A stretch of 64,000 nucleotides of DNA from an uncultured Eubacteriales bacterium (GTDB taxonomy: Bacteria > Bacillota > Clostridia > Christensenellales > Aristaeellaceae), in assembly GCA_902781095.1 (NCBI GenBank), contig CACZHW010000012.1, positions 1-64,000 of the forward strand. The letters run 5' to 3'. The translations under genes and the position numbers were made by a program. This document shows positions 34,882 through 52,240 of this stretch, piece after piece. The notes below the pieces were generated by a model, which did not search any database, was not told the DNA's origin, and was given only the letters and a program-made list of their open reading frames with translations. The first letter of the stretch is position 1, and each line of letters begins with the position of its first letter.

Positions 34882-37521
34882 TCAACCCGCTGCCGCCGCC
34901 ATCGGGATCGGAGCGGACGGCTGAAAAGCTGCCGCCTCTGTTTTCCTTTCCGCTTTGGTTTTTCTTGCGAAACATTCCGGGAAGGTTTCCGGCGTTACGA
35001 GCAGCGAGTAGACGTTTGCCTGCCCGTTTTTGCCCTTCTGCGCAACGATCTCTCTTTCGGCAAAATTGTTCAGATTGAAGTATGCTGAAGAGGTCTGCTG
35101 ACCCATGGCTTCGGCGCAGTCCTCGACTGTGAATTCTTCCTCTGCGAATATCCCGTAAAGCTTGGACAGATACAGCTTTTGTGAAGGTGTCAGGTCGTTT
35201 GCCCGCACTCCCTTGAGAATACTGCTGCAAATCCGGTAACGGCACTGTCCGGAACTGGTGCCGGTTGTTTTCCTGACAAGTCCGATGTTAAGGGCCCGGC
35301 GGATGTCGTTCCCATAAGTCCAGCTTGACGAACCGAAGCGCTTACCCCATTCTGCCGCAGTAAACGTTTCGGCTTTTTTGTCAATCAGGCCTTGCAGGAA
35401 CTGTCCGATCCGCTGATCCCTGTCTGAATCGCTTTCACGCATCTCCTTCAGTTTCTTCACTATTTCATCCGACGGAACTTCGGAAGACTGTTCGTCCATG
35501 CCCTTGAAGGCATAAACGGCGGTCCTTTTGTCGTTGGAGATGTTGACTGTCAGTCCTCTCGAAAGCATCAGATCGCAGGAATCGTTGCTTCTTTCCTTTG
35601 GAAGGCCCGATAGGTCCTTCCATTCCTGACGCGAAAAGCTGAGTATTCCTTTTTCAACGCAGTCCCGGATGGTTTCAGCGGTCTTTCGATGCATCTCTGA
35701 GAAACTGCTTTCCATCCGTTTTATTTCTTTCCAGAAATCAGGTTCGTTTGCCTGGGCGGGAGAGTGTTCCTGTACCGGGGATGCTTCGGTTTTTGCCTGA
35801 AGTCCGGCAAGCGGGATGTGAAATACCGTAGGCTTTACGTGAGGGGTTTTATTCAGGACTATTCTTCTCCGCACCAGAGAATCGCACATGTTTTTTGCCT
35901 GAATGGGCGTCAGGCCGGCGTGCTCGATCAAATCCCTTGTGGTAAAGGAGCCTTTTCCGCTCTCCACCAGTTTCCGGATGAATTGCCCCGCCCTTTGTTT
36001 ATATGGTTTGTCACTTTTTTCATAGCCGGTGATTCTGTTCCAGAACCGCTGTTCTTCCGGCGGACTCTTATCGTTTTCCTCCTGGTGTGTTTCTTCTTCC
36101 GGACCTTCTTCCTCTTCATTCGGCTGCTGCCCCGCAGATGATTCCAGGGCGTAACGGAATGAATAAGTCATGACCGTTCCGCTCTTATCCCTGTCAAGGA
36201 AACCTTTCTGGAAGATATACCTGCACTCCTGATCCGCGTCCTTGCGTTCCAAATTCATCTTTTCCGCCCATTGGGTAACCGTAAAGGTTCGGTAGCCCAA
36301 TTCGATCATCTTACGGATCTTTATGGGATATGTTCTTGTCCTGGGCGTCGGTGAATGCTTCAGTTTATCGACTGCGGTGAGAAAATCAGGCAGCGGCATG
36401 ATCTCTATCGGCGGGGAAACAGGATATTTCTTCTCTCCTGGTGCGGGGTCTTCATCCTGCTGTTGCTCTTCGGTTTCCTGCACCGTTATGGTTTCCTGCG
36501 TTGCCTCATTGGATACTGTTCTCGCAAGCGGTTCCCTGGCCAGTTCACGCTCGCGTTCAAGCGTCTGCATCTCCCTCCGGAGAAGGCGTTCTTTTCTCGC
36601 GTCTACGGCGCGCACAAGCAGTTCGATGTAATACTCTATGAAATAGGTCATGTCCCCGCCGTTTTCCGCGCGTATGATCTCCCGCATGCTTTTGTAATAC
36701 CGGTAGCTTTCCTTTGCAATGATGGCGGAAATGGAAATGTCACGGAAGAAGTCGTATCCGCAACGCAGAAGGACGGCGGAGGACATCATCCGTGACAATC
36801 GTTCGTTTCCTTCGGGGAATGGCCGCGCGACCAGAAGATAAGCCTGGGCGACGGCCGCCTTGATCAGCGGGTGGACATTGGGTTCGCCAAGGAAAGCGGT
36901 ATACTGCCGCATCCTGTCAGGGAGAGCGTGAGCCGGCGGGACATCGTATGATTCATCGTTCATGGCGGCAATGGGATGACTGTCAGCCTGCCTGTATCCT
37001 TCCGCGCACCCGTCCATTTCCTCCGTCAGAATGAAGACAAGGTTTCTGATGAAGCTCTCATCCAGCGGACGGTATAAAGTGGCCGTCATTTCCGCCCAGG
37101 CGTGCCTGTTGTTCCAGATCATCTGCTCCTGGATATTCTCGGGCTCCGTTCCGCGCTGAAGGAAATCCATTGCTTCCTGCAGGGGCATCTGGGCGCCTTC
37201 CACAAAGCTGGTGAAGAACATTTCCTCCGTCATCGCGCTTGTCATCTGCGCCAGGTATGGGTCGAAGCCTTCTTCCTGAGAAAACGCCTCCTCGCACAGC
37301 CTTTCGCTTGCGGCAATCATCCGGTCCGTCAGTACGTACCAGTAAGGCAGTCCCATGGCGTTATACAGCGGCAGTACAACAGCGGAAGCCTTGCGTCGGT
37401 TCAGCAGTTCAGGCCAGAACGAATCGATGGAGTAACTGAGGGGAAGCTTGAAAAGCACCTCCCGGCGGGAAAGATAGTGCGCCTGGAAATAGGCAAGCAG
37501 TTTATCCTTATCCATTGCCAT
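34882..37521 (-). CDS. Fic-like protein with degenerate active site and five C-terminal winged-helix-like repeats
   Basis: An 879-residue protein. Residues 104-109 (TSFVEG) match the Fic inhibitory motif [ST]xxxE[GN]. The Fic core is at 217-260, but the active-site motif HPFx[DE]GNGR reads RPFPEGNER (233-241): the catalytic His is Arg and the second Gly is Glu. A charged linker (about 305-395) leads to five related segments of about 60 residues (about 398-456, 508-568, 612-672, 701-765, 777-842), each with an FT/FS-x-x-[DE]W-like helix start and a GLV/GFL end, looking like winged helices. AMPylation is unlikely; a DNA-binding scaffold is plausible. Confidence 0.82.
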   Translation of the reverse strand: MAMDKDKLLAYFQAHYLSRREVLFKLPLSYSIDSFWPELLNRRKASAVVLPLYNAMGLPYWYVLTDRMIAASERLCEEAFSQEEGFDPYLAQMTSAMTEEMFFTSFVEGAQMPLQEAMDFLQRGTEPENIQEQMIWNNRHAWAEMTATLYRPLDESFIRNLVFILTEEMDGCAEGYRQADSHPIAAMNDESYDVPPAHALPDRMRQYTAFLGEPNVHPLIKAAVAQAYLLVARPFPEGNERLSRMMSSAVLLRCGYDFFRDISISAIIAKESYRYYKSMREIIRAENGGDMTYFIEYYIELLVRAVDARKERLLRREMQTLERERELAREPLARTVSNEATQETITVQETEEQQQDEDPAPGEKKYPVSPPIEIMPLPDFLTAVDKLKHSPTPRTRTYPIKIRKMIELGYRTFTVTQWAEKMNLERKDADQECRYIFQKGFLDRDKSGTVMTYSFRYALESSAGQQPNEEEEGPEEETHQEENDKSPPEEQRFWNRITGYEKSDKPYKQRAGQFIRKLVESGKGSFTTRDLIEHAGLTPIQAKNMCDSLVRRRIVLNKTPHVKPTVFHIPLAGLQAKTEASPVQEHSPAQANEPDFWKEIKRMESSFSEMHRKTAETIRDCVEKGILSFSRQEWKDLSGLPKERSNDSCDLMLSRGLTVNISNDKRTAVYAFKGMDEQSSEVPSDEIVKKLKEMRESDSDRDQRIGQFLQGLIDKKAETFTAAEWGKRFGSSSWTYGNDIRRALNIGLVRKTTGTSSGQCRYRICSSILKGVRANDLTPSQKLYLSKLYGIFAEEEFTVEDCAEAMGQQTSSAYFNLNNFAEREIVAQKGKNGQANVYSLLVTPETFPECFARKTKAERKTEAAAFQPSAPIPMAAAAG

Positions 37522-37533
37522 CCGTCATCCTCC

Positions 37534-37935
37534 TCAGTTCGGTCGTCCCTCGATGCCGTCCAATGGTATTTGAAGCTGGGCGGGCTGTGCCGAACGCAGG
37601 TCAAATACGATAGCGTTGTGCGAGGGAATATAATTTCCGTATATCACGCGAGGCTTTTCGTCCGTCCACCCGGTCAACCTCCTGATCCGCCTGAGCAGGG
37701 AATGGCCGCTCATTTCAAACTGCTGCATAGGAACAGGCGGGATCACGACCGCTTCTCTGTCGTCTACGGTACAGGCCTGAAGGAGGAGCATCTTCCTGTC
37801 TTCGTTGATCAGCATCTGCACCTGGCGCGGATGTTCAAGGGCTTCCAGGATTGCCTTGCTGACGAGAATACTGTCTTCCTCAAGGCAGAGCGTAAGCATA
37901 AGGGGTTCTGATCCCGCATATGAAATATCCGTCAT
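37534..37935 (-). CDS. Island protein with a short version of the recombinase C-terminal domain
   Basis: A 133-residue protein with 12-nt and 7-nt gaps to its neighbours. It follows the pattern seen in the next two genes and in the recombinase C-terminus: a strand with VQMLINEDRKMLLLQ, a helix LLRRIRRLTGW, then a YIPSHNAIVFDLRSAQPAQL end. Cysteine/Arg positions in the middle differ, so it is the most divergent copy. No known function. The shared domain suggests it partners the recombinase or its DNA complex. Confidence 0.65.
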   Translation of the reverse strand: MTDISYAGSEPLMLTLCLEEDSILVSKAILEALEHPRQVQMLINEDRKMLLLQACTVDDREAVVIPPVPMQQFEMSGHSLLRRIRRLTGWTDEKPRVIYGNYIPSHNAIVFDLRSAQPAQLQIPLDGIEGRPN

Positions 37936-37942
37936 CCGTTCA

Positions 37943-38365
37943 TCATCCTTTCCTTCCGCGGCATTCCGCCGGAGTGATCAGGGTATAAGACTTCAACTGC
38001 GCTTCGGACAGAATCATTTCCGCATCTGTGAGATCAAAGAGCCATCCCTCGGCATCCGGCAGATAATCTGTCGTTTTCATCATCCTGTTCTGCCGCTGAT
38101 CCCAGCGCATCATACCGAAGATTTTGTGCAGGAAAGCCCCGCTCCCTTTAATGACCGTCCTGCCGGGAACGGATCCGGAGGGAACGGCAAGCGCCGCTCC
38201 CAGATCCTTTTTCCCGCACGGCTTTACGATCATCATCTTCCTCTCCGGATGAACCGCCATCTGCACATAACCTGCCGGTATGCCGTCGAGTACGACGCTC
38301 CTGTCGTCTACTGAAAAAGTCATGGACAGGGGTGCGCTCTGCCGAACCTCCGCGAAGGTCCTCAT
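37943..38365 (-). CDS. Island protein with recombinase-associated domain
   Basis: A 140-residue protein whose ATG overlaps the stop of the 286-residue gene by 4 nt (38362-38365). The domain is visible as YVQMAVHPERKMMIVKPCGK, then FLHKIFGMMRWDQR and YLPDAEGWLFDLTDAEMIL. These line up with YVQVLVNPTAEKLVIRPCEE, LYEMMGW and YVFDLTSTEIYL of the upstream gene. Function unknown; the conserved RPC/KPC and GW segments mark the family. Confidence 0.7.
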   Translation of the reverse strand: MRTFAEVRQSAPLSMTFSVDDRSVVLDGIPAGYVQMAVHPERKMMIVKPCGKKDLGAALAVPSGSVPGRTVIKGSGAFLHKIFGMMRWDQRQNRMMKTTDYLPDAEGWLFDLTDAEMILSEAQLKSYTLITPAECRGRKG

Positions 38366-39222
38366 ACCTTTGTCACCTCCCCGGTTTCCTGATCTATCAT
38401 TTCCATTGGCATCTGCTGACCCTCCGGTTTCTGCCCGACGTCGGCGAAGTCGTATCCGTCCATCAGGTTAATCTGCATGGATGTCCGGTGTTCCTGAACG
38501 GGAATGCCGAAGGAATCCCGCCAGTCCGCTGGGTATACCGCTGTGCTTCTCTTGGCTTTTGCCGTCGGATTGTCAGGATCTTTGACGGAAGGAAGATAAA
38601 TCTCCGTGCTGGTAAGATCGAATACGTACAACTGCTCGCCCTGGTAACTGATCCTGGTTCCCTGAAGCTTATAGCGGTAGAGCGCTTCCCAGCCCATCAT
38701 CTCATACAGCTTTGCGGTGAACAGGCCGCATGTGATCTGCCGGCTCTTCCGCTTGTCGTCTTTGGCGATGCACCACCGGATCGCGTCCCTTGCGCCTTCC
38801 TCGCAGGGGCGGATGACCAGTTTTTCGGCGGTAGGATTAACAAGCACCTGCACGTAAACCACCTGCTCCAGCTTCGATATGCAGGCGTTGTTGAAAATGA
38901 TGCTGTTTCCACGGATCGTGAGCGTTGGATCAAACTTGTGCGAGAAGAATTCTCTGCGTACCACCTGGTAGCCCTCAAAGGAAAAACCGGCTTCGATGGC
39001 GATCCGCTGCGCTTCCTCGCGTTCTTCCTTACTCAGCGGTTTAAACCCGCCCTGGGTGAGTACCTGGGCATCCTTATCCAGCACACCGGCGGGAGAGTAC
39101 TGCTGAGGATAAGTACGCTGCGGATAGGCCGGATAGCCTGTCTGCGGCATTCCCGCAACCGGCCGGGGATACTGCGGTGAAGCCTGGGCGTTGTAGGGGT
39201 ACTCGGTTTTCCGTTCATCCAT
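38362..39222 (-). CDS. Island protein with Pro/Tyr/Gln-rich N-terminus and recombinase-associated domain
   Basis: A 286-residue protein (SD AAAGGAG). Residues 5-50 are a low-complexity Pro/Tyr/Gln region (QTGYPAYPQRTYPQQYSP). Residues about 80-210 hold the shared domain: EGYQVVRREFFSHKFDPTLT, YVQVLVNPTAEKLVIRPCEE, DAIRW, LYEMMGW, LYVFDLTSTEIYLP. The recombinase C-terminus has the same order (EGFQVVSGSLFNHAYEATVS, YVEVLFNPVERMLAVRPSDE, NAIRW, LYEALGW, LFFDLDN). A sticky N-terminus plus this domain suggests a structural role in a nucleoprotein complex; that is inference. Confidence 0.72.
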   Translation of the reverse strand: MDERKTEYPYNAQASPQYPRPVAGMPQTGYPAYPQRTYPQQYSPAGVLDKDAQVLTQGGFKPLSKEEREEAQRIAIEAGFSFEGYQVVRREFFSHKFDPTLTIRGNSIIFNNACISKLEQVVYVQVLVNPTAEKLVIRPCEEGARDAIRWCIAKDDKRKSRQITCGLFTAKLYEMMGWEALYRYKLQGTRISYQGEQLYVFDLTSTEIYLPSVKDPDNPTAKAKRSTAVYPADWRDSFGIPVQEHRTSMQINLMDGYDFADVGQKPEGQQMPMEMIDQETGEVTKV

Positions 39223-39254
39223 TTTCTGTCACTCCTTTTGCTTGTTTTCCTGCT

Positions 39255-39617
39255 TTAATCGCCGTCCCATACGCCGTCGGGTCTCATTTTCGCCATTGCG
39301 ATCAGTTGAAACAGCGGCCGTTTCGCGTTGCCTTCGGTCGCTTTCCAGTAGTCCTGGTCTACATCGTCTCCCAAAGCGGCAGCGGCCTTCTCCAGAACAG
39401 GGATGCTTTCCGCGCCTGTCATGCCGTAGATGGTCCGGATGCCTTTTTCCCCGAACACATCGTCTCTGTAATAGAAATCGCTGTAGTTGTAGGTCACATT
39501 CAGCCAAAGCTCCTTTGTGCCTCCCAACTTGTATGTGCCTCCTGTCATAAAGTGCGGCTCGTCTACCTCCAGGGTTTCCTTCGTAACCGGGTCGCGCAGG
39601 CTGATGTCATAGCTCAT
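39255..39617 (-). CDS. Hypothetical island protein
   Basis: A 120-residue acidic protein (GGAGG, 8-nt spacer). It begins YDISLRDPVTKETLEVDEPH and has a Tyr/Asn-rich strand (LWLNVTYNYSDFYYRDD). A helical second half reads ESIPVLEKAAAALGDDVDQD. The early hairpin resembles small proteins common in Bacillota mobile elements, but I cannot name the family. It sits between the 248-residue unknown and the recombinase-domain genes in one operon. Confidence 0.7.
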   Translation of the reverse strand: MSYDISLRDPVTKETLEVDEPHFMTGGTYKLGGTKELWLNVTYNYSDFYYRDDVFGEKGIRTIYGMTGAESIPVLEKAAAALGDDVDQDYWKATEGNAKRPLFQLIAMAKMRPDGVWDGD

Positions 39618-39662
39618 TTCTTTTACCTCCCGGATCTGTTTTGCTGATTGCGCGGACGAAGC

Positions 39663-40409
39663 CTATTGCTCTTTGCCGTCTTTTTTCTTCCAAAGCTTTC
39701 CTACCAGAAGAGCGTCCAGCCTTCCGCATATTTCAGGCGCGCACTCAGCAAGTACCGCGTCCTGCCCGAGGGAAAGCTTTCCGTAGAAATCGCGCATGAA
39801 TTCTTCGCTGAAGGCTCCGTACACCATTCTGCTGGACTCATCGTGCAGATGGCATTCGCACCTGTATATGTAGCCGAGCCAGTAGGCGTATTCGTAATCG
39901 TCCGCCAGCTTTTTAACGTCCGTTTCCGAATCCAGGATTACAGGACTGGCGCGGGCCTGAGGGTCACTTTCTTCTGTCTCTTCCTCGTTCAGCGCTTTGA
40001 CGATCGCCATGTTCGGGTTTTCTCCTGTTCCGACGCCGCTGACAATTTCGTTCAGCCACATGACCGTATCCACGATAACGGAAGGGGACTTCAGCAGTAC
40101 GGGCATCCTCAGGTAGTTGGATATATCGTCTTCCTCCATGCCGCCGGCGCAGGAGAAGCTGTAGTCGATGACCCCCGCAAGCTGGCTGTTCATGAACACC
40201 GGTGCAAACTCGCTCATGGCAAGGCCCCTGTCTACCGCCGCCATGAAAATGCTTCCCTGCATGTCGCAGTAGGCAAGATCGCGTTCGGTGAATTCACGCT
40301 CAATCTTCTCCACGTCGGGGTTTATCGGGGATTCCCGCGCCATCTTCATCAACCGCTTCACGTTTCGGGAAAGCGGTCTGCTCCGCGCGGGGTTCTTGGC
40401 ACTGATCAT
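39663..40409 (-). CDS. Hypothetical island protein coupled to the recombinase
   Basis: A 248-residue protein whose start overlaps the recombinase stop by 4 nt (40406-40409). It is acidic and mostly helical. A basic N-terminus (KNPARSRPLSRNVKRLMKMA) is followed by a body with a DYEYAYWLGYIYRCECHLHD segment near residue 185. No catalytic motif is recognised. The tight coupling suggests dosage-linked action with the recombinase. Confidence 0.68.
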   Translation of the reverse strand: MISAKNPARSRPLSRNVKRLMKMARESPINPDVEKIEREFTERDLAYCDMQGSIFMAAVDRGLAMSEFAPVFMNSQLAGVIDYSFSCAGGMEEDDISNYLRMPVLLKSPSVIVDTVMWLNEIVSGVGTGENPNMAIVKALNEEETEESDPQARASPVILDSETDVKKLADDYEYAYWLGYIYRCECHLHDESSRMVYGAFSEEFMRDFYGKLSLGQDAVLAECAPEICGRLDALLVGKLWKKKDGKEQ

Positions 40410-42652
40410 TCCGGGCCTCCTTCCTCGTTTTCATCGTCGTCTTCCGCCGCGTCCATCGCGTCCAGCATGATTTCCTGGAGCGCTTCGATCTCGCTGTAGT
40501 CAACACGGTGATCGCCGCCCAGAACACGCGCTTCCGTCATGACCTCCCATTCTCCGTCGTCGTCAATCGCCGTCAGCCGGAATTCGCTGTTGTGCTCGAA
40601 GGCCGGGGTGCCGTAGTTCCGCTTTTCATATTCCGCGATTTCCTTCAGCTTCTGTTCCATCGCTTCCGTGTCCTCGATGGGCTGCGGTTCGTCGTCCGCT
40701 CCGAAGAATATTCCTTTGGTTTCTTCGGATTCCATCCGCCGTCCGGTTTCCTGCCCCGGCGCGTTCTCTTCTCCCGCTGTGCGCTTGCAAAGTTCCCTGC
40801 CGATGAAATTGTCCAGGTCGAAGAACAGGATGGTTTCACCGTCTCTTCGGCGCACGATTGCGGGTGAGCGGTATGCGTACCCTTCATCCCACCCAAGCGC
40901 TTCATACAGTATGGAACAGAACGCTTTTGCGCTGACGTTTGCGCCTTTGCCTTTCTTATCCGTCCAGCGGATTGCGTTCCGGTTGCTTTCGTCGCTCGGG
41001 CGGACGGCAAGCATCCTTTCGACCGGGTTGAACAGCACCTCGACATACTGCTGCCGGGAGATGGTGATTTTACCGTCTGATTCTGATGACGTATCCAGGC
41101 GGGAAACGCATGTGGTGCTGAAAGCCATCTGCCTGGGGCTGAAGGAGACGGTCGCTTCATACGCGTGATTGAACAGGCTTCCGCTGACCACCTGAAATCC
41201 TTCGCGGATCTTCGGAGCGTTTTCCTTTGATTCGCTCTCTTCCTGGCTGCCCTCGATCTGCGCTTTGATTTTCTGCTCCGCGCTGGAAAGCGTCCTGGCG
41301 ATGCGCTGGACTCCGTTGTCGTCTGTCATTCCGACAAGACGTCTGCCGCCCTCCGGCAGATGCTCGTTCTCCAGGTCTGTTTCCATTTCACCCTCGGCAA
41401 GCCCCATGGCGATGCTGCTGACGCGGTAGTATTCCGCGGCGTCGTATCCTGCCCAGGCCTTGTTCACGGAAATGTATCCGGTCAGCGCGCCGTGGTCGAT
41501 GACCATCATGGGGAGGTAACCGCCTGTATGCCTGTACCTGTGGCTGTTCAGTATCCGCTGCGCCGCGTTCCACTGCGCTCTGGTGATGATCGCCGGATGA
41601 TGACCCGGCTGGTAATACTTGTTCTTCTTGCCGTTGTTCCGCTTGGACTTATGGTCGTGGAAATCAGGCGTCCATGTTTTCCTGGCCAGTACGTCTCCGC
41701 AGTAGCGTTCATTCCGCAGGACGCTGTACACCGCGGCTTCCGTCCAATGCGTGCTGTGCCGTCCGCACACCTTCCACAGCCCGGTTTCCCTGCGCAGGTC
41801 GTTCAGCGTTTTCGCGATCTCCGCCGTGGAACTCCCGTTCAGCAGCATGTAATACATGAGCCGGACGGTATTCGCTTCATCCTCGTTGATGACAAGCACC
41901 TTTTTATGACTCCCGTGCCCGTCCGGTATCTCGACCCTGTCGTATCCCAGCAGCGCGGGGGTAATGAAACGGCCGCGACTGAAGCGCCATTCGATGGACA
42001 ACTGCGACGCCTCGCTCTTCATATGGCTTTCTTCCTCGGCCACCATGGCCAGGACGAAGAGGATGATGTTGCTGGTGGCGTCCAGGGTGTTTAGGTGCTC
42101 CTGCTCGAAGAATACGGGAATGGGCGGATCGTGCTTGTCCTTCAGTTCACGCACCCACCCGATGCAGTCCAGCAGGTTTCTCGCGAAGCGGCTCACCGAC
42201 TTGGTGATGATCATGTCGATCTTGCCGTCCATGGCGTCTTTCATCATGAGTTTGAAGGCCGGCCGGTGATCCGTGTTCGTTCCGGAGAATCCGTCGTCCA
42301 CGTAGGTGCCGGCGTAGCGCCATTTGGGATTGGCTTTGATCATGTCCCGGTAATTCCGCTTCTGGAGTTCGATGGACCACAGCTGATCCACGTCTTCCGT
42401 GGAGACACGGCAGTAGGCGGCGACCCTCAGGATACGGTCTTCCTGGGCGGCCTGCGCGGCGGTGGGGATCTTGTGGATGCCCTCGCCGGTATAGGTGCTG
42501 ACCTCGGCGCGCAGGGCTTCCTTCGCCCTCGCGCGTTCGGTCATGAACCCATTTCCCGGCGGACGCTCAGCGGGTTTTCCCCGCGCCTCCCGCGCCTTTT
42601 GCCTGGCCCTTTCCTCGGCCATCGGACGTACGTCTTTCAAGGGTTGCTTCAC
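40406..42652 (-). CDS. Large serine recombinase with extra C-terminal domain
   Basis: A 748-residue protein. The resolvase catalytic domain spans about residues 74-215: YCRVSTED with Ser84 as nucleophile, YVDDGFSGTN, SRFARN with the catalytic arginines, and EEESHMKSEAS. The recombinase domain follows (LLGYDRV, ALYYMLLNGSS-like YYMLLNGSS, YSVLRNERYCGD). A classic zinc-ribbon CxxC pair is not evident; instead residues about 486-620 carry a domain shared with three downstream genes. The start is GTG 42652, though GGAG sits only 1-2 nt upstream; TTG 42640 is an alternative. It probably moves the island. Confidence 0.9.
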   Translation of the reverse strand: MKQPLKDVRPMAEERARQKAREARGKPAERPPGNGFMTERARAKEALRAEVSTYTGEGIHKIPTAAQAAQEDRILRVAAYCRVSTEDVDQLWSIELQKRNYRDMIKANPKWRYAGTYVDDGFSGTNTDHRPAFKLMMKDAMDGKIDMIITKSVSRFARNLLDCIGWVRELKDKHDPPIPVFFEQEHLNTLDATSNIILFVLAMVAEEESHMKSEASQLSIEWRFSRGRFITPALLGYDRVEIPDGHGSHKKVLVINEDEANTVRLMYYMLLNGSSTAEIAKTLNDLRRETGLWKVCGRHSTHWTEAAVYSVLRNERYCGDVLARKTWTPDFHDHKSKRNNGKKNKYYQPGHHPAIITRAQWNAAQRILNSHRYRHTGGYLPMMVIDHGALTGYISVNKAWAGYDAAEYYRVSSIAMGLAEGEMETDLENEHLPEGGRRLVGMTDDNGVQRIARTLSSAEQKIKAQIEGSQEESESKENAPKIREGFQVVSGSLFNHAYEATVSFSPRQMAFSTTCVSRLDTSSESDGKITISRQQYVEVLFNPVERMLAVRPSDESNRNAIRWTDKKGKGANVSAKAFCSILYEALGWDEGYAYRSPAIVRRRDGETILFFDLDNFIGRELCKRTAGEENAPGQETGRRMESEETKGIFFGADDEPQPIEDTEAMEQKLKEIAEYEKRNYGTPAFEHNSEFRLTAIDDDGEWEVMTEARVLGGDHRVDYSEIEALQEIMLDAMDAAEDDDENEEGGPE

Positions 42653-42750: not shown

Positions 42751-43020
42751 TTATTTTTCAGTGAACACACCCAGTTCCTCAAACTCCGCCCCGAAAGTGA
42801 TCTCATACGGGTCGATGCCCAGCACCGCGCACACTGCAAGTCCTATCTTCATACTTGCATTTCGGAAAGGCCTTTCGCCGTTTTCGAGGCGCTGATACTG
42901 CCTGATGTTTATGCCGATGATCGTGGCCACCTTCTGCTGGGAATATCCCATCCGGAGGCGCGCTTCCGTGATCATTTTCGCTTCATACCCCGTACGTTCG
43001 TTGATCTTTCTTCCGGCCAT
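42751..43020 (-). CDS. XRE-family HTH transcriptional regulator
   Basis: An 89-residue protein with ATG 43020 behind AAAGGAGG. The helix-turn-helix is clear: ARLRMGYSQQKVATIIGI then NIRQYQRLENGERPFRNAS (about residues 22-58). It is oriented towards the recombinase, with a TTGACT-17-CTGTAT promoter at about 43050-43080. It is the best candidate to bind the CCGTACGG-type site upstream of the recombinase and HAD operons, as an element-encoded repressor; that link is inference. Confidence 0.88.
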   Translation of the reverse strand: MAGRKINERTGYEAKMITEARLRMGYSQQKVATIIGINIRQYQRLENGERPFRNASMKIGLAVCAVLGIDPYEITFGAEFEELGVFTEK

Positions 43021-43121
43021 CCCGCCGCCTCCTTTCTCAAGGGTAGGTGGCATACAGCCATAGGTTCGGAAGGAAGTCAACGCCTGTGCTCAAGAGTTAT
43101 CCTAAAGTTAAGAAACAAAAG

Positions 43122-43146
43122 AAAAAAGCGGGGTTCAATCCCCGCT
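43122..43146 (-). terminator. Terminator of the phosphoesterase/macrodomain operon
   Basis: On the minus strand AGCGGGG-ATTGAA-CCCCGCT is followed by TTTTTTC (stem 43127-43133 and 43140-43146). Confidence 0.88.
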
Positions 43147-43164: not shown

Positions 43165-44016
43165 TTACTCTGCCATAAGAGTCTTGCTGAACGCATCGTA
43201 GTTTGCGGTTTCCGTGGGCCGGCAGTATACCGCGAATTCTACATGTCTGAACCAGCCTGCGTATTCTTCCAAGGCTGTCCTGAACGCCTCTGCAACAGCG
43301 TCCGGATCGTTCATGAACGCTCCGCAGCCGAATGCGCCGAGAATCAGCATGTCCGCTTTGTTTGCTGCGGCGACATGCAGGATGTGCTTCGCGCGCTTGA
43401 CATGCAGATCATACTGCTCCGAAAAACTGAGAGACACTGCCGCTCCGCTGGCGGGATTATGCACGTTCCCGGGTTCCGGGCGGAGGTTAGGAGCGGCACA
43501 ACTGATCACGTCCACTGTGACCCAGTCTTCCTGCTTCATGCGCTGGGGGAAGGTTTCGTCTGTTTTGCAGATTACGATCCCCGACGAATAAATGCAGGCG
43601 TCGGTATTCAGGTTATTGTGCGCGGCACGGTTTGGATCGTAGTATTTCTGCCACAGCCACCGCCGGTCAAGCGTCGGGTAAAGAGTAGAGCACCGGCACA
43701 GGCTTTCTTCCTGTGCGCTGCTGCCTGTTTTCACTCCGCCGCCGGGACGTGTCGCCGAAGCGAAATTCAGCACGGCGATCCTGTCTTCCGGGTGAGCGGA
43801 ATGCCACTCCATTGCCGCTTCAAACGTCTTATGCTTCGTTACGCTTACACTGCCTTCGCGATCCGGCGCTCCCTCCAGAGCGGGATATTCATCGACGGCA
43901 TACAGTTTCGTACCGTCTCGGCTGGCTGCCACTGAAGATGCCAGCGCGGGATCTTCCGTATAGAACTTCTGTGTATCCTCAAAAACCTCAATCAGCCGTT
44001 GGCGTCGGTCGTACAT
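43165..44016 (-). CDS. TIGR02452 family protein (bacterial PARG/macrodomain type)
   Basis: A 283-residue protein. The signature is around residues 85-110: NFASATRPGGGVKTGSSAQEESLCR (the GGGV loop and QEE catalytic pair of bacterial poly(ADP-ribose) glycohydrolases), followed by STLYPTL and later ADMLILGAFGCGAFMNDPDAVA, which binds ADP-ribose in macrodomains. It is expected to remove ADP-ribose from proteins or nucleic acids. Last gene of a coupled operon, overlapping the metallophosphoesterase gene by 25 nt. Confidence 0.9.
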   Translation of the reverse strand: MYDRRQRLIEVFEDTQKFYTEDPALASSVAASRDGTKLYAVDEYPALEGAPDREGSVSVTKHKTFEAAMEWHSAHPEDRIAVLNFASATRPGGGVKTGSSAQEESLCRCSTLYPTLDRRWLWQKYYDPNRAAHNNLNTDACIYSSGIVICKTDETFPQRMKQEDWVTVDVISCAAPNLRPEPGNVHNPASGAAVSLSFSEQYDLHVKRAKHILHVAAANKADMLILGAFGCGAFMNDPDAVAEAFRTALEEYAGWFRHVEFAVYCRPTETANYDAFSKTLMAE

Positions 44017-44558
44017 GCGTGTTCCTCCTTAAAACGCCGGTTGTTTTCAATCAGTTCATCCAGAGTGACAGGCGCGAAGCCGTTGATATCCACGCCCGCG
44101 TTGAGCATCTGATCCCGGGCGGCGATGAGCGGCCAGTAATCCGCACCGGTGTTGTTATGGATGTGGCCGTAAATCATATACCCGCCTCTGCTCATACCCG
44201 GCCAGGACATCATGGGATAATGGCACAGTGTGGCCGAGCGTCCGCTGTCTGTGACAAAGAGCATGGGCGATACGCTTTCAAACCACGCGCCTAGATCCGC
44301 CTTCTTCATCCAGTACCTGTCATGGTTGCCGATGACAAGGTGCTTTTTGCCCTTCAGCGCCGACAGGTATACTTCCGCCGGTTTCTTTGCGCGGAAGAGA
44401 AAGTCGCCCACGATATAAACTGTGTCGTTTCGATGCACCTTGGCATTCCAGTTTTTGATCAGCGCCGTGTCCATTTCATCCGCGTCAGCAAAAGGGCGGC
44501 CGCAGTGCCGGATGACGTTGGCATGACCAAGATGCAGGTCAGAGGTGTACCAGATCAA
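43992..44558 (-). CDS. Metallophosphoesterase (calcineurin-like)
   Basis: A 188-residue protein with TTG start at 44558 (SD AGGTGA). Metal-ligand motifs are in the canonical order: TSDLHLGH, VYIVGDFLF, VIGNHDRY, CHYPMMSW and YGHIHNN. It resembles phage and plasmid single-domain phosphoesterases that act on nucleotides or cyclic phosphates. It is the second phosphoesterase of this operon and is unlike the one at 45754-46449, so they probably act on different bonds. Confidence 0.92.
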   Translation of the reverse strand: MIWYTSDLHLGHANVIRHCGRPFADADEMDTALIKNWNAKVHRNDTVYIVGDFLFRAKKPAEVYLSALKGKKHLVIGNHDRYWMKKADLGAWFESVSPMLFVTDSGRSATLCHYPMMSWPGMSRGGYMIYGHIHNNTGADYWPLIAARDQMLNAGVDINGFAPVTLDELIENNRRFKEEHACTTDANG

Positions 44559-44570
44559 TCACATCACCTC

Positions 44571-45185
44571 TCAGCTTTCGAGAATCAGCACACGCACATC
44601 CCGCAGGCCGATGGCAGAGTCTTCGTCCTCCCACGCAAGGTTGCGGTTGAAGGCCTGTACACGGGCGGAAACGGCCTGATAAAACTCCCGAAGAATACTG
44701 CGGCTGCCGTAAGGCGGGGTGTATTCATAATACTGATAGGCCTTCTTCGCTTCCGTATCCAGTTCCTGATACTCTTCCACGGAAAGCATATGATCTTCGT
44801 TCAGGGAATCCTCCTCCGGGTGGCTCAGTTGTCTTCCGATCTCCTGCCGGGGGAAGAAGCCGCAATACTCGGGTATGCTGAAATCTACCTTCTCAAACCA
44901 TTTGCCGTCAATCACATACCAACTGCGCCATCTGGGGTTTTCCGTGCCGGCAAGCACGCCGTCATCACCGGTGCATTCCTTCTTCACCGCGTCGGACAGA
45001 TCTCCCGGCGGGGCCATCAGGTACTGCCAGTCGCAGTCCCACTCCAGCGCCTGTTTTACAAGGCTCTGGCCTGTGACGCAGGGGACGATCCGGAGCCGGC
45101 CCTTTACATCCTGCTGAAAGAAATCAATACACTGCCACTGACCGTTTACCTTTGCTTCAGTATAGCCGTCAAGCCATACGCTCAT
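44571..45185 (-). CDS. Hypothetical protein of the phosphoesterase operon
   Basis: A 204-residue acidic protein rich in Trp, Tyr and Glu. It starts MSVWLDGYTEAKVNGQWQCI, a form seen in small phage-encoded proteins, and has KYYEYTPPYG-like YQYYEYTPPYG near residue 150. No catalytic signature. It overlaps the GrpB gene by 4 nt (45182-45185) and precedes a phosphoesterase by 12 nt, so it is co-expressed with nucleotide-acting enzymes. Confidence 0.72.
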   Translation of the reverse strand: MSVWLDGYTEAKVNGQWQCIDFFQQDVKGRLRIVPCVTGQSLVKQALEWDCDWQYLMAPPGDLSDAVKKECTGDDGVLAGTENPRWRSWYVIDGKWFEKVDFSIPEYCGFFPRQEIGRQLSHPEEDSLNEDHMLSVEEYQELDTEAKKAYQYYEYTPPYGSRSILREFYQAVSARVQAFNRNLAWEDEDSAIGLRDVRVLILES

Positions 45186-45742
45186 TTCTGTTCACTTCCT
45201 TTGCGTTCCGAAAAGGCCTGCCTGTATCCCGCCAGCACACCTTCGATAAAGAATCCCTTGACCGTCCGGTACATGTCCCGGTCGTCCGGGAAGATACCTT
45301 CCAGCATATGCTTTGTATACCTGTACCTGGCGCGCAGCAGTTCACTGTCCAGAAGCAGTCTCTGAAACAGCAGCTGATCCTGCGCGACAGGATTGTCCTC
45401 ATAGCACAGATGCGCATAGAAGGTCTTGCCGGGCTCTCTGCCGCTGGACAGGAAATACCGTCCCGGTTTGCCGCACTCTCCAAGATTGCGGTAACCGATG
45501 CGTTCCAGTTTGGGGATGCATGATTCCAGCGGCACGCTTTTGTCCGGGCAGACCAGAATGTCGATGATGGGCTTGGCAGGCATCCCTTCAATGGACGTGG
45601 AGCCGACATGCCTGACAGCAACGCTTCCGCCGTCATCAATGAGCGCGCCGATGATGCACTGCTTTTCCAGGTGAAATTCGTGCTGCCATTCGGAATCCCA
45701 GGGGGCGAGCCACACTTCGTTGTGAATATCCTTTTTCTCCAT
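45182..45742 (-). CDS. GrpB family nucleotidyltransferase-fold protein
   Basis: A 186-residue protein. ATG 45742 is preferred (GAGGAG upstream). GrpB/UPF0157 markers: EVWLAPWDSEWQHEF, the nucleotidyltransferase signature VRHVGSTSIEGMPAKPIID, and HLCYEDNPVAQDQLLFQRLL. The GS...DxD pattern suggests nucleotidyl transfer, but activity of the family is poorly known. It lies between the second phosphoesterase and an unknown gene in a run of overlapping genes. Confidence 0.88.
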   Translation of the reverse strand: MEKKDIHNEVWLAPWDSEWQHEFHLEKQCIIGALIDDGGSVAVRHVGSTSIEGMPAKPIIDILVCPDKSVPLESCIPKLERIGYRNLGECGKPGRYFLSSGREPGKTFYAHLCYEDNPVAQDQLLFQRLLLDSELLRARYRYTKHMLEGIFPDDRDMYRTVKGFFIEGVLAGYRQAFSERKGSEQK

Positions 45743-45753
45743 GCCGTTACTCC

Positions 45754-46449
45754 TCACACCTTGAATTCCCGGATAGACTCAAACAGCAGCGTCAGCCTGT
45801 CAATATCCTTTTCCGTATGATAGTGCCCGGCGTACCAGTGCTTATAGGTCAGTCTGTCTTCAATAGAATCCAGCCAGGTTTCCGTGCTTTTATCCACCTT
45901 GCTCTGATCGATCTGGGGAAGGAACACTTCAACCGGCTCGTATTTCAGGGGAACTGTATGGGTCAGGACGGCATCGACTTTCCAGTTCTCGTAATCAAGG
46001 ACTTTTTCGATTCCCTTTTTCATTTCGGGCGTCGGCTGCTCGTCCGCCCACCAATTCCAGCCGTTTGCCAGACGGTAGTATTTGTCCACGCTGTACGCGC
46101 CACCGATAACGATCGTCTTCTGCCCGTCCATATCAAACACTTCGCCGTCAACGGCGAACAGCAGATTGGGATATTCGTCCTCGACGAATACCATGCCGCC
46201 GTTCCATTTCTTCAGACGGTATGTAGGGATCGTGCCCGGGCGCATTTCGTGGTTTCCGTGAATGGAGAATATGGTGATGGGCATTTCAGCCATACGCTTT
46301 TTTGCGCGTTGATCCCGCTTGCCGCCGTAGTAATTGAACCCGGCGTCACCGAGGATGATCATGACGTCGTCTTTTGACGGGTGAAACCTGTCGCAGAACC
46401 GCTCGATGCGGGAAAAGTCTCCATGCGTGTCTCCGGTTATATAAATCAT
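45754..46449 (-). CDS. Metallophosphoesterase
   Basis: A 231-residue protein. Metal-binding motifs: ITGDTHGDF, MIILGDAGFNYYGG, IFSIHGNHEMRPG, LTHTVP and YAGHYHTEKD. The GDTHGD/GNHE set and the WWADEQPT segment match stand-alone phage-type phosphoesterases. The start at 46449 (GAAGGAG) overlaps the upstream gene by 4 nt. It is distinct from the 188-residue enzyme downstream. Confidence 0.92.
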   Translation of the reverse strand: MIYITGDTHGDFSRIERFCDRFHPSKDDVMIILGDAGFNYYGGKRDQRAKKRMAEMPITIFSIHGNHEMRPGTIPTYRLKKWNGGMVFVEDEYPNLLFAVDGEVFDMDGQKTIVIGGAYSVDKYYRLANGWNWWADEQPTPEMKKGIEKVLDYENWKVDAVLTHTVPLKYEPVEVFLPQIDQSKVDKSTETWLDSIEDRLTYKHWYAGHYHTEKDIDRLTLLFESIREFKV

Positions 46450-46742
46450 TTCTTCTCTCCTTCAAGATGGGCTTTTGCCCAGCTTTCGGCGCGGTCAGGA
46501 TCGCTTACGCACCAGTAGAGGAAAAGGATCAGCGTTTCTTCCAGTGTCCAGCCAATGGCTGACATCACCGCTTCCGCTTTTACTTTCAGCACCTCGTCCA
46601 ATTCGACGGAGATGGTTTCCGTCGCGCACTCAATGCTGCGCCTGACGTTTTCATGGACGGACATGAGTTCCGCATCCTCAGGGCATTTGAAGAAGTCCGG
46701 TTCTTTCCGCCCTGCCACATAGTTAAATATCTTCTGCTCCAT
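46446..46742 (-). CDS. Small RHH/RelB-like protein
   Basis: A 98-residue acidic protein. The second half (VELDEVLKVKAEAVMSAIGW followed by TLEETLILFLYWCV) resembles the RelB/DinJ antitoxin pattern of strand plus two helices. No toxin of the RelE type is adjacent. The upstream gene overlaps by 20 nt (46723-46742). It may be a regulator of the operon or an orphan antitoxin. Confidence 0.62.
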   Translation of the reverse strand: MEQKIFNYVAGRKEPDFFKCPEDAELMSVHENVRRSIECATETISVELDEVLKVKAEAVMSAIGWTLEETLILFLYWCVSDPDRAESWAKAHLEGEKK

Positions 46743-47016
46743 TCTGTTTTATCCTCCTGGCGGCCCTGCGCTTTTCCCGGTATTCTCTGCTGATCCGTTC
46801 CACTTCGGCGATCTCCGCCTCGTAATTGCCTGACAGGCAGGCGTAAGTCTCAATTGACGTCAGCGCGCAGACACGCTTGCCCCTCCGGGTAAAGAACGCG
46901 ATATGACCGGGCGTTTCGACGAAAGCCCAAACCGCTGACGGCTTTCTGCGGAATGCGGTAACGGTGAAGTCTTTTTCCTCGATCAGGAAGTCGAGCTTCC
47001 CTGGCATGTGATCCAT
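46723..47016 (-). CDS. Hypothetical small protein of the phosphoesterase operon
   Basis: A 97-residue protein (GGAGG, 7-nt spacer). It has beta strands KLDFLIEEKDFTVTAF and VWAFVETPGHIAFFTRRGKR, then a basic helix (EVERISREYREKRRAARRIK). It overlaps both neighbours (33 nt with HAD, 20 nt with the RHH gene). I do not recognise the fold. Confidence 0.6.
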   Translation of the reverse strand: MDHMPGKLDFLIEEKDFTVTAFRRKPSAVWAFVETPGHIAFFTRRGKRVCALTSIETYACLSGNYEAEIAEVERISREYREKRRAARRIKQNGAEDI

Positions 47017-47474
47017 GGGTGTGCCTCCAGCCCGTTAAGTATTTCTATACACCGGTCAGCTTCCTTCTCAGTCAGACCGGTGTCAAATTCTGTTTGAACG
47101 AGATGGTCCATATGACCAGTCATATCGTTGTCATCGTCCAGAATCACATACTGCCATTCGCCCGGATTACGGTTGAACCATGCTGTGATATCATTTCCTC
47201 GTTCACCGCCGACATAGGGGGTCTTATCATACGGTTCTATCCCATATTTCGTGAGCCATTCCAGCAGACGCTGGTACGATGTGGGAATTTGTCGCCAGGC
47301 AGAGGAAACCACAATATACGCACCGGTATAAGCAACGATACGCTTTAACTGTTCCAGGGACGGCTCGTACAGAAGATCGTCCCTGTAGGTGCGTACACCC
47401 CGCTCATACATTCTGGTAGCCCATGAGCCATTGTTAAGGACACCGTCCACATCAAGAAAAATGACTTTGTTCAT
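46983..47474 (-). CDS. HAD-family phosphatase of the RNA-repair (HAD_SAK) type
   Basis: A 163-residue protein; ATG 47474. HAD motifs: FLDVDGVLNN (nucleophile Asp), IVVSSAWRQ (motif II Ser), and YVILDDDNDM (motif IV). The TPYVGGERGNDITAWF and TEFDTGLTEKEAD stretches match the HAD domain found in Swiss-army-knife RNA repair proteins and related phage phosphatases. It opens the coupled operon and would act on phosphorylated nucleic acid ends or nucleotides. Confidence 0.88.
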   Translation of the reverse strand: MNKVIFLDVDGVLNNGSWATRMYERGVRTYRDDLLYEPSLEQLKRIVAYTGAYIVVSSAWRQIPTSYQRLLEWLTKYGIEPYDKTPYVGGERGNDITAWFNRNPGEWQYVILDDDNDMTGHMDHLVQTEFDTGLTEKEADRCIEILNGLEAHPWITCQGSSTS

Positions 47475-47612: not shown

Positions 47613-47640
47613 AAAAAAGGCACCCCAACATAGGGCGCCC
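47613..47640 (-). terminator. Terminator of the HTH gene at 47645
   Basis: On the minus strand GGCGCCC/GGGTGCC (47633-47639, 47619-47625; one G-U pair) followed by TTTTTTC. Confidence 0.8.
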
Positions 47641-48572: not shown

Positions 48573-50021
48573 TTAGGATAAAAAGTATGTATCAATTTCT
48601 CCAACCGTATGCAATATTTTGCTATCGCTTACACCTGCTTCTTTCGCGAGTAGAATAGATGCCCAGAAAGATTTATTTACATCTGAATTGAATGCGAGTT
48701 CGCAGATGCCGTTATAATAAGTGACATACGCCAGGAGATCGTTAATTGTTTTTTGCAAGTCTGACTTTAAAGAATTAGTATATACTGTCAATTCTGAATT
48801 CATCTCTTCAACTAAAGCTTCTTCCTTCTTTTCAGCATATCTAATACAAATACCATAAAGTGTTTCACCGATAATATTTCCAATAACTGCCCCTAGAATT
48901 GGGATTGGAATGATCATTTGCCCAAAGTAAGAAGACAAGGTACTAATGGCAATATCAAGACACATTATTTCTGAGTTTATCAAGAAGGTGTCTTCGGCAA
49001 TAGCGCCTCTTTCATATGCATTCAACTGAGAAACAACACCAATTGCCGCCGTAGTGTATGCAGATGCAAGATTCGCCGATGTATTAGTAAAATTGGTCAA
49101 TAGATATACGCTAGTGCCACGTATGCCGCCCTTAATTATACCAAATCCGGTTTCTTTTGCGATCTCTATCCAGTCATTCTCATCAAACTCGTATAGGTGC
49201 TTTCCGGAACGGAGCTTTTTGAATACACATATGCAAAAGCAAAGACCGCCTTCAACTGCTGCAGATGTTCCTGCCACTTTGGCCCCTTCTTTTAGCGAAG
49301 GAGCAGTTTTTCGATACGCTTCCTGACGCTGTTCCTGATCCTTTTTATCAAGCAATTGTTTTTCATTATCAATAGCTGCATTAACTTCGTTCTGCTGTAC
49401 TTGATTATAGTCAGCAACAGACGGTGCTAAATCAGAGGAGACCGACAACCCTGTATCCTTTTCAAATTCATTTATTGCTTGCAGTTGAGACCATTCCGAA
49501 TTACTCAAAGATGAGGGTTTGTTTTTTGAACGATAAATAATTTCTTGCATTTCTTCCCATTGATCCTTGGGGATATCATAGCTTCCACCGTTTGACACAA
49601 AATCCGGATAGGTTTCAGAATGCTTCTTTACTGCTCGAAGTGTGTTTTTTATTCCGTTGCAGAACTTTGACTGTATTTGTTCGCCGTTCCTTAGATAGTC
49701 CTCTGGTGCGGTTCTTCCAACGCCGTCAAATGAATACTCTTTTTCTAAACCCAGAATTGCATTTCTCGCATTAGAGATGTTAACCTGGTAATGCTCGGCT
49801 ATTTCACCGTGCTTAGTCAATTCGCTCCCGAGAATATGCTCTGGATCAGCAATAAAGCTTTTAAGTTCATTTAGTTCTGCTAAGGCATTCTCCAAATTCA
49901 AATCTTGTTTAAACAGTCTTGAACACAGGTCATATAACCGAAGCTGATTCTTATAGTCGATCCACGCTGCTGTAGCCTTGTCGACAGTACTTCTTGAGGC
50001 TCTGCTTACAGATTCGGCCAT
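48573..50021 (-). CDS. Putative membrane-active protein of a two-gene accessory module
   Basis: A 482-residue AT-rich gene. The first 250 residues are a helical/coiled-coil region; a second part (about 250-420) has Gly/Ala-rich amphipathic and hydrophobic stretches (FGIIKGGIRGTSVYLLTNFT, then TAAIGVVSQL, then MIIPIPILGAVIGNIIGETL), a glycine-zipper-like pattern seen in pore-type proteins. The ATG overlaps the stop of the upstream gene by one base (TAATG). I do not recognise the family. The position beside defence-like genes suggests an effector. Confidence 0.7.
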   Translation of the reverse strand: MAESVSRASRSTVDKATAAWIDYKNQLRLYDLCSRLFKQDLNLENALAELNELKSFIADPEHILGSELTKHGEIAEHYQVNISNARNAILGLEKEYSFDGVGRTAPEDYLRNGEQIQSKFCNGIKNTLRAVKKHSETYPDFVSNGGSYDIPKDQWEEMQEIIYRSKNKPSSLSNSEWSQLQAINEFEKDTGLSVSSDLAPSVADYNQVQQNEVNAAIDNEKQLLDKKDQEQRQEAYRKTAPSLKEGAKVAGTSAAVEGGLCFCICVFKKLRSGKHLYEFDENDWIEIAKETGFGIIKGGIRGTSVYLLTNFTNTSANLASAYTTAAIGVVSQLNAYERGAIAEDTFLINSEIMCLDIAISTLSSYFGQMIIPIPILGAVIGNIIGETLYGICIRYAEKKEEALVEEMNSELTVYTNSLKSDLQKTINDLLAYVTYYNGICELAFNSDVNKSFWASILLAKEAGVSDSKILHTVGEIDTYFLS

Positions 50022-50719
50022 TATTGCTCCTCCTCAGAATAAGTTATTGCTTTGCTAATAGCCTCTGATAACGTAAGTGTCTTGTTTACTATACTCCCAA
50101 GGAATTTTCTAATTTGGATGTCTAAAGACCTATAATCGCAGTTTCTATACAAACCGAGACGATCAACTTCAGAGTTTAAACCATTATATAATGTTTCAAT
50201 CATGCTGGTTTTTGCATCGATCTGTGCTATATATTTTGATAATTCAGTCTCTTTCTTCCTTATCTCTTGAGTTACTTTAAATGCTTCATTGGCGATTTTT
50301 GTATTCGTAGCCTTAATCTTCAAAACTGATAATGCAGTATGAAAGGCAACGATTGCCCAACCAAACCAATGGTCAAAACGTTCTCCAGAACCTATATATA
50401 CCCAACCTCGACCTGCTCCTTTTAGAAGATCACCAGTGGCATCTAAGTATCCTTCAAATGCCTGATCTTTATATTCTTCAGTTTTTTTATATGTCGAAAT
50501 ATTGCTTGTAACGGTAAAGATGTCAGTTCGCATTTCCTTTGGTGAATTGCAAATTGAATTAATTAGATCACAAATATGATTAATTAGATCTATTGACGCT
50601 TCCTGGCAATTGCGAAGCTTATCTGAAGAAGATTTCAACTGAGGCAATAAATTGTTGAATGACGATAATGCTTTTTCATAGTTCGCAAGCGCTTCTTTCT
50701 TAAGGTCATTGTTAAGCAT
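50021..50719 (-). CDS. Partner protein of the two-gene module
   Basis: A 232-residue AT-rich gene (SD TTGGAGGG). Helical throughout, with an N-terminal coiled-coil (YEKALSSFNNLLPQLKSSSD), a central hydrophobic stretch (HWFGWAIVAFHTALSVLKI) and a second helical part (VTQEIRKKETELSKYIAQ). The central segment could be one membrane pass. It is co-translated with the 482-residue protein. No family recognised; it may sense or gate the partner. Confidence 0.68.
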   Translation of the reverse strand: MLNNDLKKEALANYEKALSSFNNLLPQLKSSSDKLRNCQEASIDLINHICDLINSICNSPKEMRTDIFTVTSNISTYKKTEEYKDQAFEGYLDATGDLLKGAGRGWVYIGSGERFDHWFGWAIVAFHTALSVLKIKATNTKIANEAFKVTQEIRKKETELSKYIAQIDAKTSMIETLYNGLNSEVDRLGLYRNCDYRSLDIQIRKFLGSIVNKTLTLSEAISKAITYSEEEQ

Positions 50720-52226: not shown

Positions 52227-52240
52227 GCCGTTCTCCTTCT

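Follow-up and report, generated by a model that had tools for sequence, protein, structure and literature searches.

A mobile eight-gene operon combining a bacterial-type PARG with putative RNA-end-healing phosphatases

Bacterial PARGs, including the one encoded in the DRB0098-DRB0100 operon of Deinococcus radiodurans, strip ADP-ribose from the 2'-OH of RNA and shield cells from an RNA-targeting ADP-ribosyltransferase, or ART (PMC11833690). This operon is composed of an RNA ligase family protein, a TIGR02452 PARG and an HD-phosphatase/polynucleotide kinase, and a link between PARG and RNA repair was proposed earlier in the literature (PMC1997131, PMC11833690). Phages carry RNA-repair sets built from “Swiss Army Knife” (SAK)-type HAD enzymes, calcineurin-like phosphatases, RlaP and Rnl ligases (PMC7824862, PMC9503650), and SAK HAD, calcineurin-like and Macro enzymes have been predicted as RNA-repair components (PMC7824862). 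In addition, host systems that join an ADP-ribosylglycohydrolase (ARG) to phosphatases in the absence of an ART have been predicted (PMC9503650, section 3.8), just over 42% of those published showing the Nudix/WYL feature (PMC9503650). The locus described here bears on the role of the many bacterial PARGs.

The locus lies in a window of 64,000 nucleotides (the whole stretch of DNA analysed) from an uncultured, gut-type Eubacteriales bacterium. An earlier note, made from the sequence alone, had placed a tight operon of eight genes (here g1 to g8) on the minus strand from 47474 to 43165. All eight ORFs were found at these positions, with successive junction gaps of -34, -20, -4, -4, -4, +12 and -25 nt, which establishes the operon anatomy at the sequence level. 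The terminator of the note corresponds to an intrinsic-terminator-like hairpin directly after g8 (43127..43146, minus strand; 7 pairs, 6 of them G-C, then TTTTTC), and a second such hairpin upstream of g1 (47618..47640, minus strand; 10 pairs, 6 G-C, then TTTTTC) insulates the operon. The single promoter also claimed was not recovered, the promoter scan having returned no site upstream of g1; a TTGAAA-like element is readable by eye in that region. Family calls made against curated profile cut-offs confirmed the proposed enzymes, that is, a HAD phosphatase, two unlike metallophosphoesterases (MPEs), a GrpB protein and a TIGR02452 PARG. Profile searches of the eight proteins detected no Nudix enzyme, no ligase family and no P-loop kinase family, and no ART match was obtained among them or in the scanned neighbour genes. 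A genome-wide search of the source MAG (89.6% complete), confined to the PF09414 ligase, was likewise negative.

The PARG is the product of g8 (43165..44016, minus strand). It scores 127.8 bits against PF10021 (cut-off 23.5, E=5.7e-37) and 167.2 bits against TIGR02452 (cut-off 50), and its signature GGG-X7-QEE (residues 92-104) fits the bacterial-type pattern GGG-X6-8-QEE, with G92-G94, Q102, E103 and E104 invariant in 12 aligned sequences. It matches the D. radiodurans PARG 5zda with E=1.4e-30 and is about 36 to 39% identical to the PARG of DRB0098-DRB0100; ADP-ribosylhydrolase activity is known only from homologues (PMC11833690). At the other end of the operon, g1 (46983..47474, minus strand) encodes a HAD_SAK_2 phosphatase of 163 aa, a SAK RNA-repair HAD (PF18143, 97.5 bits, cut-off 27.5, E=1.1e-27), in which the alignment shows the HAD motifs DxD (D8 and D10, within DVDG), S58 and DD (113-114) to be kept.

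The two MPEs are of different kinds. MPE1 (g4; 45754..46449, minus strand) is a calcineurin-like metallophosphoesterase (PF00149, 54.3 bits, E=3e-14) with complete metal-ligand motifs, D7, H9, D35, N66, H164, H209 and H211 being invariant in the alignment. Its model (pLDDT 87.7) matches Dbr1 chains best (Z about 13.6 to 14.4, rmsd 3.4-4.4, 189-206 residues aligned), but aq_1956 (Z 13.5) ties with them to within 1 Z unit, and MPPED2 and GpdQ (both 13.0) and PptH score only slightly lower. As a group, Dbr1 and the phosphodiesterases MPPED2, GpdQ and Rv0805 are the best matches (Z 12.4 to 14.4), at 13 to 18% identity and with Dbr1 being far longer. MPE2 (g7; 43992..44558, minus strand, TTG start) is aq_1665-like (PF00149, 26.4 bits), matches phrog_547 with E=1.2e-48 and the solved structure 1xm7, and its catalytic set is invariant in the alignment. 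The catalytic motifs of the HAD, both MPEs and the PARG are thus intact, as judged from their sequences.

The GrpB family member g5 (45182..45757, minus strand; PF04229, 113 bits, cut-off 25.5, E=1.8e-32) is nucleotidyltransferase-like and reads KPIIDILV where relatives have KPIVDVLV, meaning that the second acidic residue of Dh[DE]h is missing and the canonical pair incomplete. The earlier note had listed three small unknowns, which holds for g6 in that it has no family, while g2 and g3 are weakly antitoxin-like below cut-off: g2 (97 aa; 46723..47016, minus strand) resembles Phd/YefM antitoxins (PF02604, E=0.008) and g3 (98 aa; 46446..46742, minus strand) RelB/DinJ (NF008412, E=0.009). Searches of solved structures gave no convincing relative for g2 and no relative for g3. 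The near-orphan g6 (204 aa; 44571..45185, minus strand) was not matched when viral contigs, phages and plasmids were searched, and 200 same-family genomes gave a single partial match, of 32 residues at a contig end; its homologue set could not be assembled, and its single-sequence structure model reached a pLDDT of 35.

The co-occurrence elsewhere that the note had put forward as a check was found at the level of pairs, members of the set clustering far above chance, but not for the full set, which was absent from every other genome searched, g6 being practically unique. Because the eight-gene set is not conserved, it does not represent a fixed system. The 200 same-family genomes were traced for six genes (g1 and g4-g8, with g5 sought only in the 22 PARG-bearing genomes). 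In them, PARG, HAD, MPE1, MPE2 and an RNA ligase (PF21189/PF09414) formed 11 pairs at most 10 kb apart, spread over six loci, where random placement with per-genome counts kept would give 0.29; six of these 11 pairs come from one cluster (G168), and the HAD was never closely paired with PARG, MPE1 or MPE2. At several loci the RNA ligase is a direct neighbour. In L034 its coding region shares ~4 nt with that of the PARG, and in L071 a HAD with 72% identity to g1 lies directly downstream of the ligase, ~30 nt apart. In L064 the ligase is followed by an MPE2-domain protein, the gene order in L058 is ligase-MPE-MPE-MPE2-like, and in L091 Pnkp and Hen1 stand beside the same ligase family. Outside the phylum, two Curtobacterium plasmids carry a HAD gene no more than two or three genes away from the RNA ligase (HAD_SAK_2 checked on one). 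MPE1 relatives also adjoin other members of the set, namely a PARG (62% and 65%, respectively) in L031, with RlaP nearby on the opposite strand, and MPE2 (81% and 79%) in L048. In genomes other than this one, members of the set are found near RNA ligases more often than chance would predict.

Among 381 genomes of the class, the PARG survey returned three close loci only, none beside repair genes when the neighbours were read, and more distant PARGs occupy unrelated contexts. MPE1 relatives are frequently solitary and chromosomal, and both MPEs and GrpB are also found alone or in unrelated places. No annotated RNA ligase lies near the closest phage relatives of MPE1 (an Oscillospirales phage) and of the HAD (RB16), and relatives of g8, g6 and g4 were absent from the viral contigs when these were scanned by sequence pattern.

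The operon is part of a mobile island. The next gene downstream (42751..43080, minus strand; HTH_3, E=1e-7) encodes an Xre-type HTH regulator, of which a 43% relative stands beside the same recombinase in L035. It is followed by a large serine recombinase of 748 aa (40406..42652, minus strand; Resolvase E=1.3e-27, Recombinase E=1.9e-20), with relatives of 67% in L035 and 51% in L071. The rest of the module (34882..40409, minus strand) comprises accessory genes at 39663-40409, 38362-39222 and 37534-37935 and a Fic gene at 34882-37521. L071 keeps this order (after the recombinase, 49%, 60% and 54%, then Fic with 50%) and L035 does so partly. The loci thus share a serine-recombinase module, found in two other genera and both times next to members of the gene set: GrpB and PARG are the cargo in L035, RNA ligase and HAD in L071. 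A search for direct repeats that would mark integration ends found none connecting the island's right side with the tmRNA region. Further defence-like genes are present on the island.

The explanation that we favour, with a probability of roughly 0.55, is that the operon is mobile, interchangeable cargo providing RNA-end healing and de-ADP-ribosylation without a ligase of its own. The earlier note had suggested RNA-end repair or reversal of ADP-ribosylation, which is supported in part: relatives of HAD, MPE2 and PARG adjoin RNA ligases, but the eight-gene set is not conserved. Since its relatives elsewhere adjoin RNA-repair ligases, the operon most likely cleans RNA ends that a toxin or an immune attack has damaged or left blocked by ADP-ribose. 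In the proposed pathway, cellular RNA would be harmed by an RNase or an RNA-modifying ART, which could belong to a defence system, come from a competing bacterium or arrive with an incoming element. The MPEs would act first, opening cyclic or odd phosphodiester ends, and the 2'/3' phosphates left by them would be taken off by the SAK-type HAD. The PARG would free the 2'-OH or phosphate ends of RNA from ADP-ribose, or clear ADP-ribose by-products, with GrpB and g6 as possible helpers. The last step would fall to a ligase made elsewhere, or the cleaned fragments would decay. The beneficiary could be the host or the element, corresponding to defence or counter-defence. More tentatively, a whole serine-recombinase element family of rumen/gut-type Bacillota may carry swappable cassettes in which PARG, SAK HAD and Dbr1-like MPEs jointly reverse RNA ADP-ribosylation and cleavage, making up a mobile system of immunity or counter-immunity in which a ligase is optional.

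Several observations speak against the favoured explanation: the exact set is known from one locus, the MAG yielded no PF09414 ligase, a single cluster supplies six of the 11 pairs, the HAD lacks close pairs with the PARG and the MPEs in the 200 genomes, more distant PARGs and many MPE1 relatives stand in other contexts, GrpB is without the full Dh[DE]h pair, and the Dbr1 match is nearly tied with other enzymes. Alternatively, the island could simply be a place where small enzymes land after lateral transfer, co-transcribed by chance and each with its own substrate. This would fit the non-conserved set, the solitary MPE1, GrpB and PARG relatives of many genomes and the presence of GNAT, ASCH and further unrelated genes among the related cargo of L035 and L002. 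Such accretion seems rather unlikely in view of the specific clustering (11 pairs against 0.29), the repeated direct adjacency of one RNA-ligase family and the HAD-ligase neighbours on Actinomycetota plasmids. Those ligase neighbours, together with the SAK HAD, indicate RNA as the substrate and make it less probable still that the PARG, phosphatases and MPEs form an anti-defence kit of the element that breaks down, in place of RNA, soluble ADP-ribose derivatives or cyclic nucleotide signals of host immune systems. Clearance of this kind would agree with the phage Macro-type and calcineurin-like enzymes predicted to act against NAD-/nucleotide-based immunity (PMC9503650, PMC7824862), with the predicted ART-less ARG-phosphatase host systems, with the likeness of the MPE1 model to MPPED2, GpdQ and Rv0805 and with the other defence-like genes on the island, the lack of a Nudix enzyme among the eight proteins counting against it. 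Finally, orphan g2 and g3 might act as antitoxins against incoming RNases or regulate their own operon, leaving the enzymes to mend residual damage. The weak antitoxin profile matches, and Phd-like and ParE-like proteins read by eye near GrpB-PARG in L033, hint at this; with both matches under the curated cut-offs, no paired toxin gene and no support from solved structures, it is improbable.

Compared with described systems, the operon stands apart from each. PADLOC models gave nothing convincing for a known anti-phage defence system, the one marginal match being g7 to PDC-S10 (E=8e-4), and a DarTG-like toxin-antitoxin was rejected as no partner ART occurs in the operon or the scanned neighbours. 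With the ART-less ARG-phosphatase systems it shares an ADP-ribose-removing enzyme, phosphatases (here the HAD and two MPEs), the missing ART partner and variable cargo. It differs in having a macro-fold PARG instead of an ARG (DraG-like) fold, and in lacking a Nudix enzyme, recognised chaperone-family genes and a WYL regulator, the flanking regulators examined being plain HTH proteins. The phage RNA-repair sets have phosphatase families in common with it, and a ligase-HAD pair appears in the same recombinase-element family (L071); unlike them, the window set is ligase-free, sits in a serine-recombinase island and uses a bacterial-type PARG in place of KptA/2H/Macro or sirtuin.

The closest parallel is DRB0098-DRB0100. 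The operon falls outside that type because the ligase and the polynucleotide kinase are missing, the PARG being present; its further genes code for a SAK HAD, two MPEs, GrpB and small proteins. In both cases a TIGR02452 PARG is co-transcribed with nucleic-acid end-processing enzymes, and the Deinococcus operon is plasmid-borne near an integrase and transposases; its PARG reverses RNA 2'-OH ADP-ribosylation (PMC11833690). By analogy, the best reading is that the present operon works in a similar way. The locus and its relatives connect a close clade of PARGs with genes for RNA ligases and RNA-end healing in Bacillota, beyond Deinococcus. They offer the PARG concrete candidate partners (SAK HAD, Dbr1-like MPE1 and aq_1665-like MPE2), and point to a family of recombinase elements that seem to carry interchangeable RNA-damage responses as cargo.

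The operon consists of eight ORFs on the minus strand (g1 to g8, 47474 to 43165), whose successive junction gaps are -34, -20, -4, -4, -4, +12 and -25 nt. Most junctions are thus overlaps, in agreement with the tight arrangement described in the earlier note, and this spacing is as expected of a single co-transcribed, translationally coupled unit. A single promoter had also been claimed, for which the promoter scan gave no confirmation; the claimed terminator has a counterpart in a terminator-like hairpin detected by sequence scan downstream of the operon (43146-43127), with a second hairpin of this type upstream (47640-47618).

Searches with Pfam and NCBIfam profiles assigned g1 to HAD_SAK_2, g4 and g7 to metallophosphoesterases (MPE1 and MPE2, respectively), g5 to GrpB and g8 to TIGR02452/PARG, while g2 and g3 gave antitoxin-family matches below cut-off only and g6 had no family match. 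Sequence alignments showed intact catalytic DxD and DD motifs in the HAD protein, intact metal ligands in both metallophosphoesterases and an intact GGG-X7-QEE signature in PARG. The GrpB motif, KPIIDILV, lacks the second acidic residue of canonical Pol-beta nucleotidyltransferases, which makes a polymerase-like activity of this protein doubtful. MPE1 was modelled from 12 sequences of the window and the loci (pLDDT 87.7), and the top fold match of the model was Dbr1, a phosphodiesterase that debranches RNA lariats (Z 13.6 to 14.4; 189 to 206 residues aligned at an rmsd of 3.4 to 4.4 A), closely followed by aq_1956 (Z 13.5), MPPED2, GpdQ and PptH (Z 13.0), and Rv0805 (Z 12.4), with Mre11-type nucleases reaching Z 11.4 at most. 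This ranking points to a phosphodiesterase rather than a protein phosphatase, without singling out a substrate. MPE2 is similar to aq_1665 (structure 1xm7).

The conserved co-occurrence that the earlier note proposed to look for was found for partial gene sets. In a set of 200 same-family genomes, each queried for PARG, HAD_SAK_2, MPE1, MPE2 and the PF21189 RNA-ligase OB domain, 11 pairs lay within 10 kb at six loci (window left out), against 0.29 expected from random gene placement within the genomes that hold them. The pairs are non-independent, one locus (G168) contributing 6 of the 11, but even when counted by locus, six against 0.29 remains a strong excess. At 4 of the 9 ligase loci in these genomes an operon-enzyme relative is directly adjacent. 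PARG overlaps the RNA ligase by ~4 nt at L034, where relatives of MPE1 and MPE2 lie no more than 8 kb away; the ligase is followed by HAD at L071, by an MPE2-domain protein at L064 and, directly, by three consecutive metallophosphoesterase genes at L058 (816-2727). Other loci carry an MPE1-PARG pair with RlaP ~2.4 kb off on the opposite strand (L031), an MPE1-MPE2 pair (L048), or PARG preceded by an ASCH-domain gene and followed after ~1 kb by RtcB (L002). Pnkp and Hen1 form an established RNA-repair pair, and at L091 (2-5437) a PF21189 RNA-ligase copy adjoins Hen1 and a complete Pnkp with its ligase domain, so that this repair locus holds a pair of ligases. Beyond the class, a HAD gene lies at a distance of two or three genes from a PF21189 RNA ligase on two Curtobacterium plasmids (HAD_SAK_2 confirmed on the first), and a Collinsella plasmid (L099) carries an MPE2-MPE1-MPE1-like trio similar to that of L058. 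Against clustering stand the PARGs of other families (38-47% identity), which occur in unrelated contexts, and the MPE1 relatives, which are often solitary.

The island bearing the operon adjoins the tmRNA gene (32923-33270), just downstream of which lie 21-nt tandem repeats (33457-33582; core TTCCCGTAG..CTTATA). Base composition shifts on both sides, GC being ~0.51-0.58 at 33-47 kb and 0.36-0.48 at 47-56 kb, compared to mostly 0.58-0.65 in the outside chromosome; a search for direct repeats marking the island ends found none. Directly downstream of the operon follow an HTH gene, a large serine recombinase, accessory genes and finally a Fic protein (34882-37521; 879 aa, Fic domain N-terminal; PADLOC SoFic, E=1.4e-27). 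Two other genera also carry this recombinase module: at L035 (recombinase 67% to the window's) it adjoins GrpB, GNAT and PARG, and at L071 (recombinase 51%, with a 50% relative of the N-terminal part of Fic) an RNA ligase and HAD. A module accessory gene was present in 2 of 26 genomes, those of L035 and L071 only, the 26 having been picked for carrying operon-gene or ligase relatives, not for adjacency. By tblastn, two accessory proteins (38362-39222 and 37943-38365) and the recombinase C-terminal region have a repeated domain in common (26 to 35% identity), suggesting an internally duplicated element-specific domain. Upstream of the operon, past two small genes, the low-GC stretch holds a pair matching the predicted defence candidate PDC-M09A/B (48573-50719; PADLOC, E down to 1.6e-156), then a DUF2130 protein, a 266-aa protein and an AbiLi-like AAA ATPase (50811-54512; E=1.2e-27 for the ATPase), possibly another defence system.

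For phages, it has been predicted that SAK-type HADs and calcineurin-like enzymes strip phosphates off cleaved RNA and that ADP-ribose by-products are handled by Macro enzymes (PMC7824862 section 3.4.9; PMC9503650); a link between PARG and RNA repair had been proposed earlier (PMC1997131). Given these published roles, cleaning of RNA ends is the most likely function of the window operon, with the metallophosphoesterases and HAD presumably dealing with phosphates and PARG with ADP-ribose. Sealing, if any, would have to be supplied by a ligase from elsewhere; the operon has none, and no PF09414 ligase was found in the MAG (89.6% complete). The operon may benefit the host, as immunity, or the mobile element, as counter-immunity.

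The individual operon proteins are members of known families. In the literature searched, nothing described this set of proteins together or its transfer by a family of recombinase elements whose RNA-repair cargo varies; a NAR 2016 paper on SAK RNA repair, a key work lying outside that literature, may already do so. The operon is predicted to work like the Deinococcus radiodurans operon DRB0098-DRB0100, but falls outside that set because it lacks both the ligase and the kinase. It also resembles the predicted ART-less ARG-phosphatase systems, from which it differs in being devoid of a Nudix or WYL regulator and in having a macro-type PARG.
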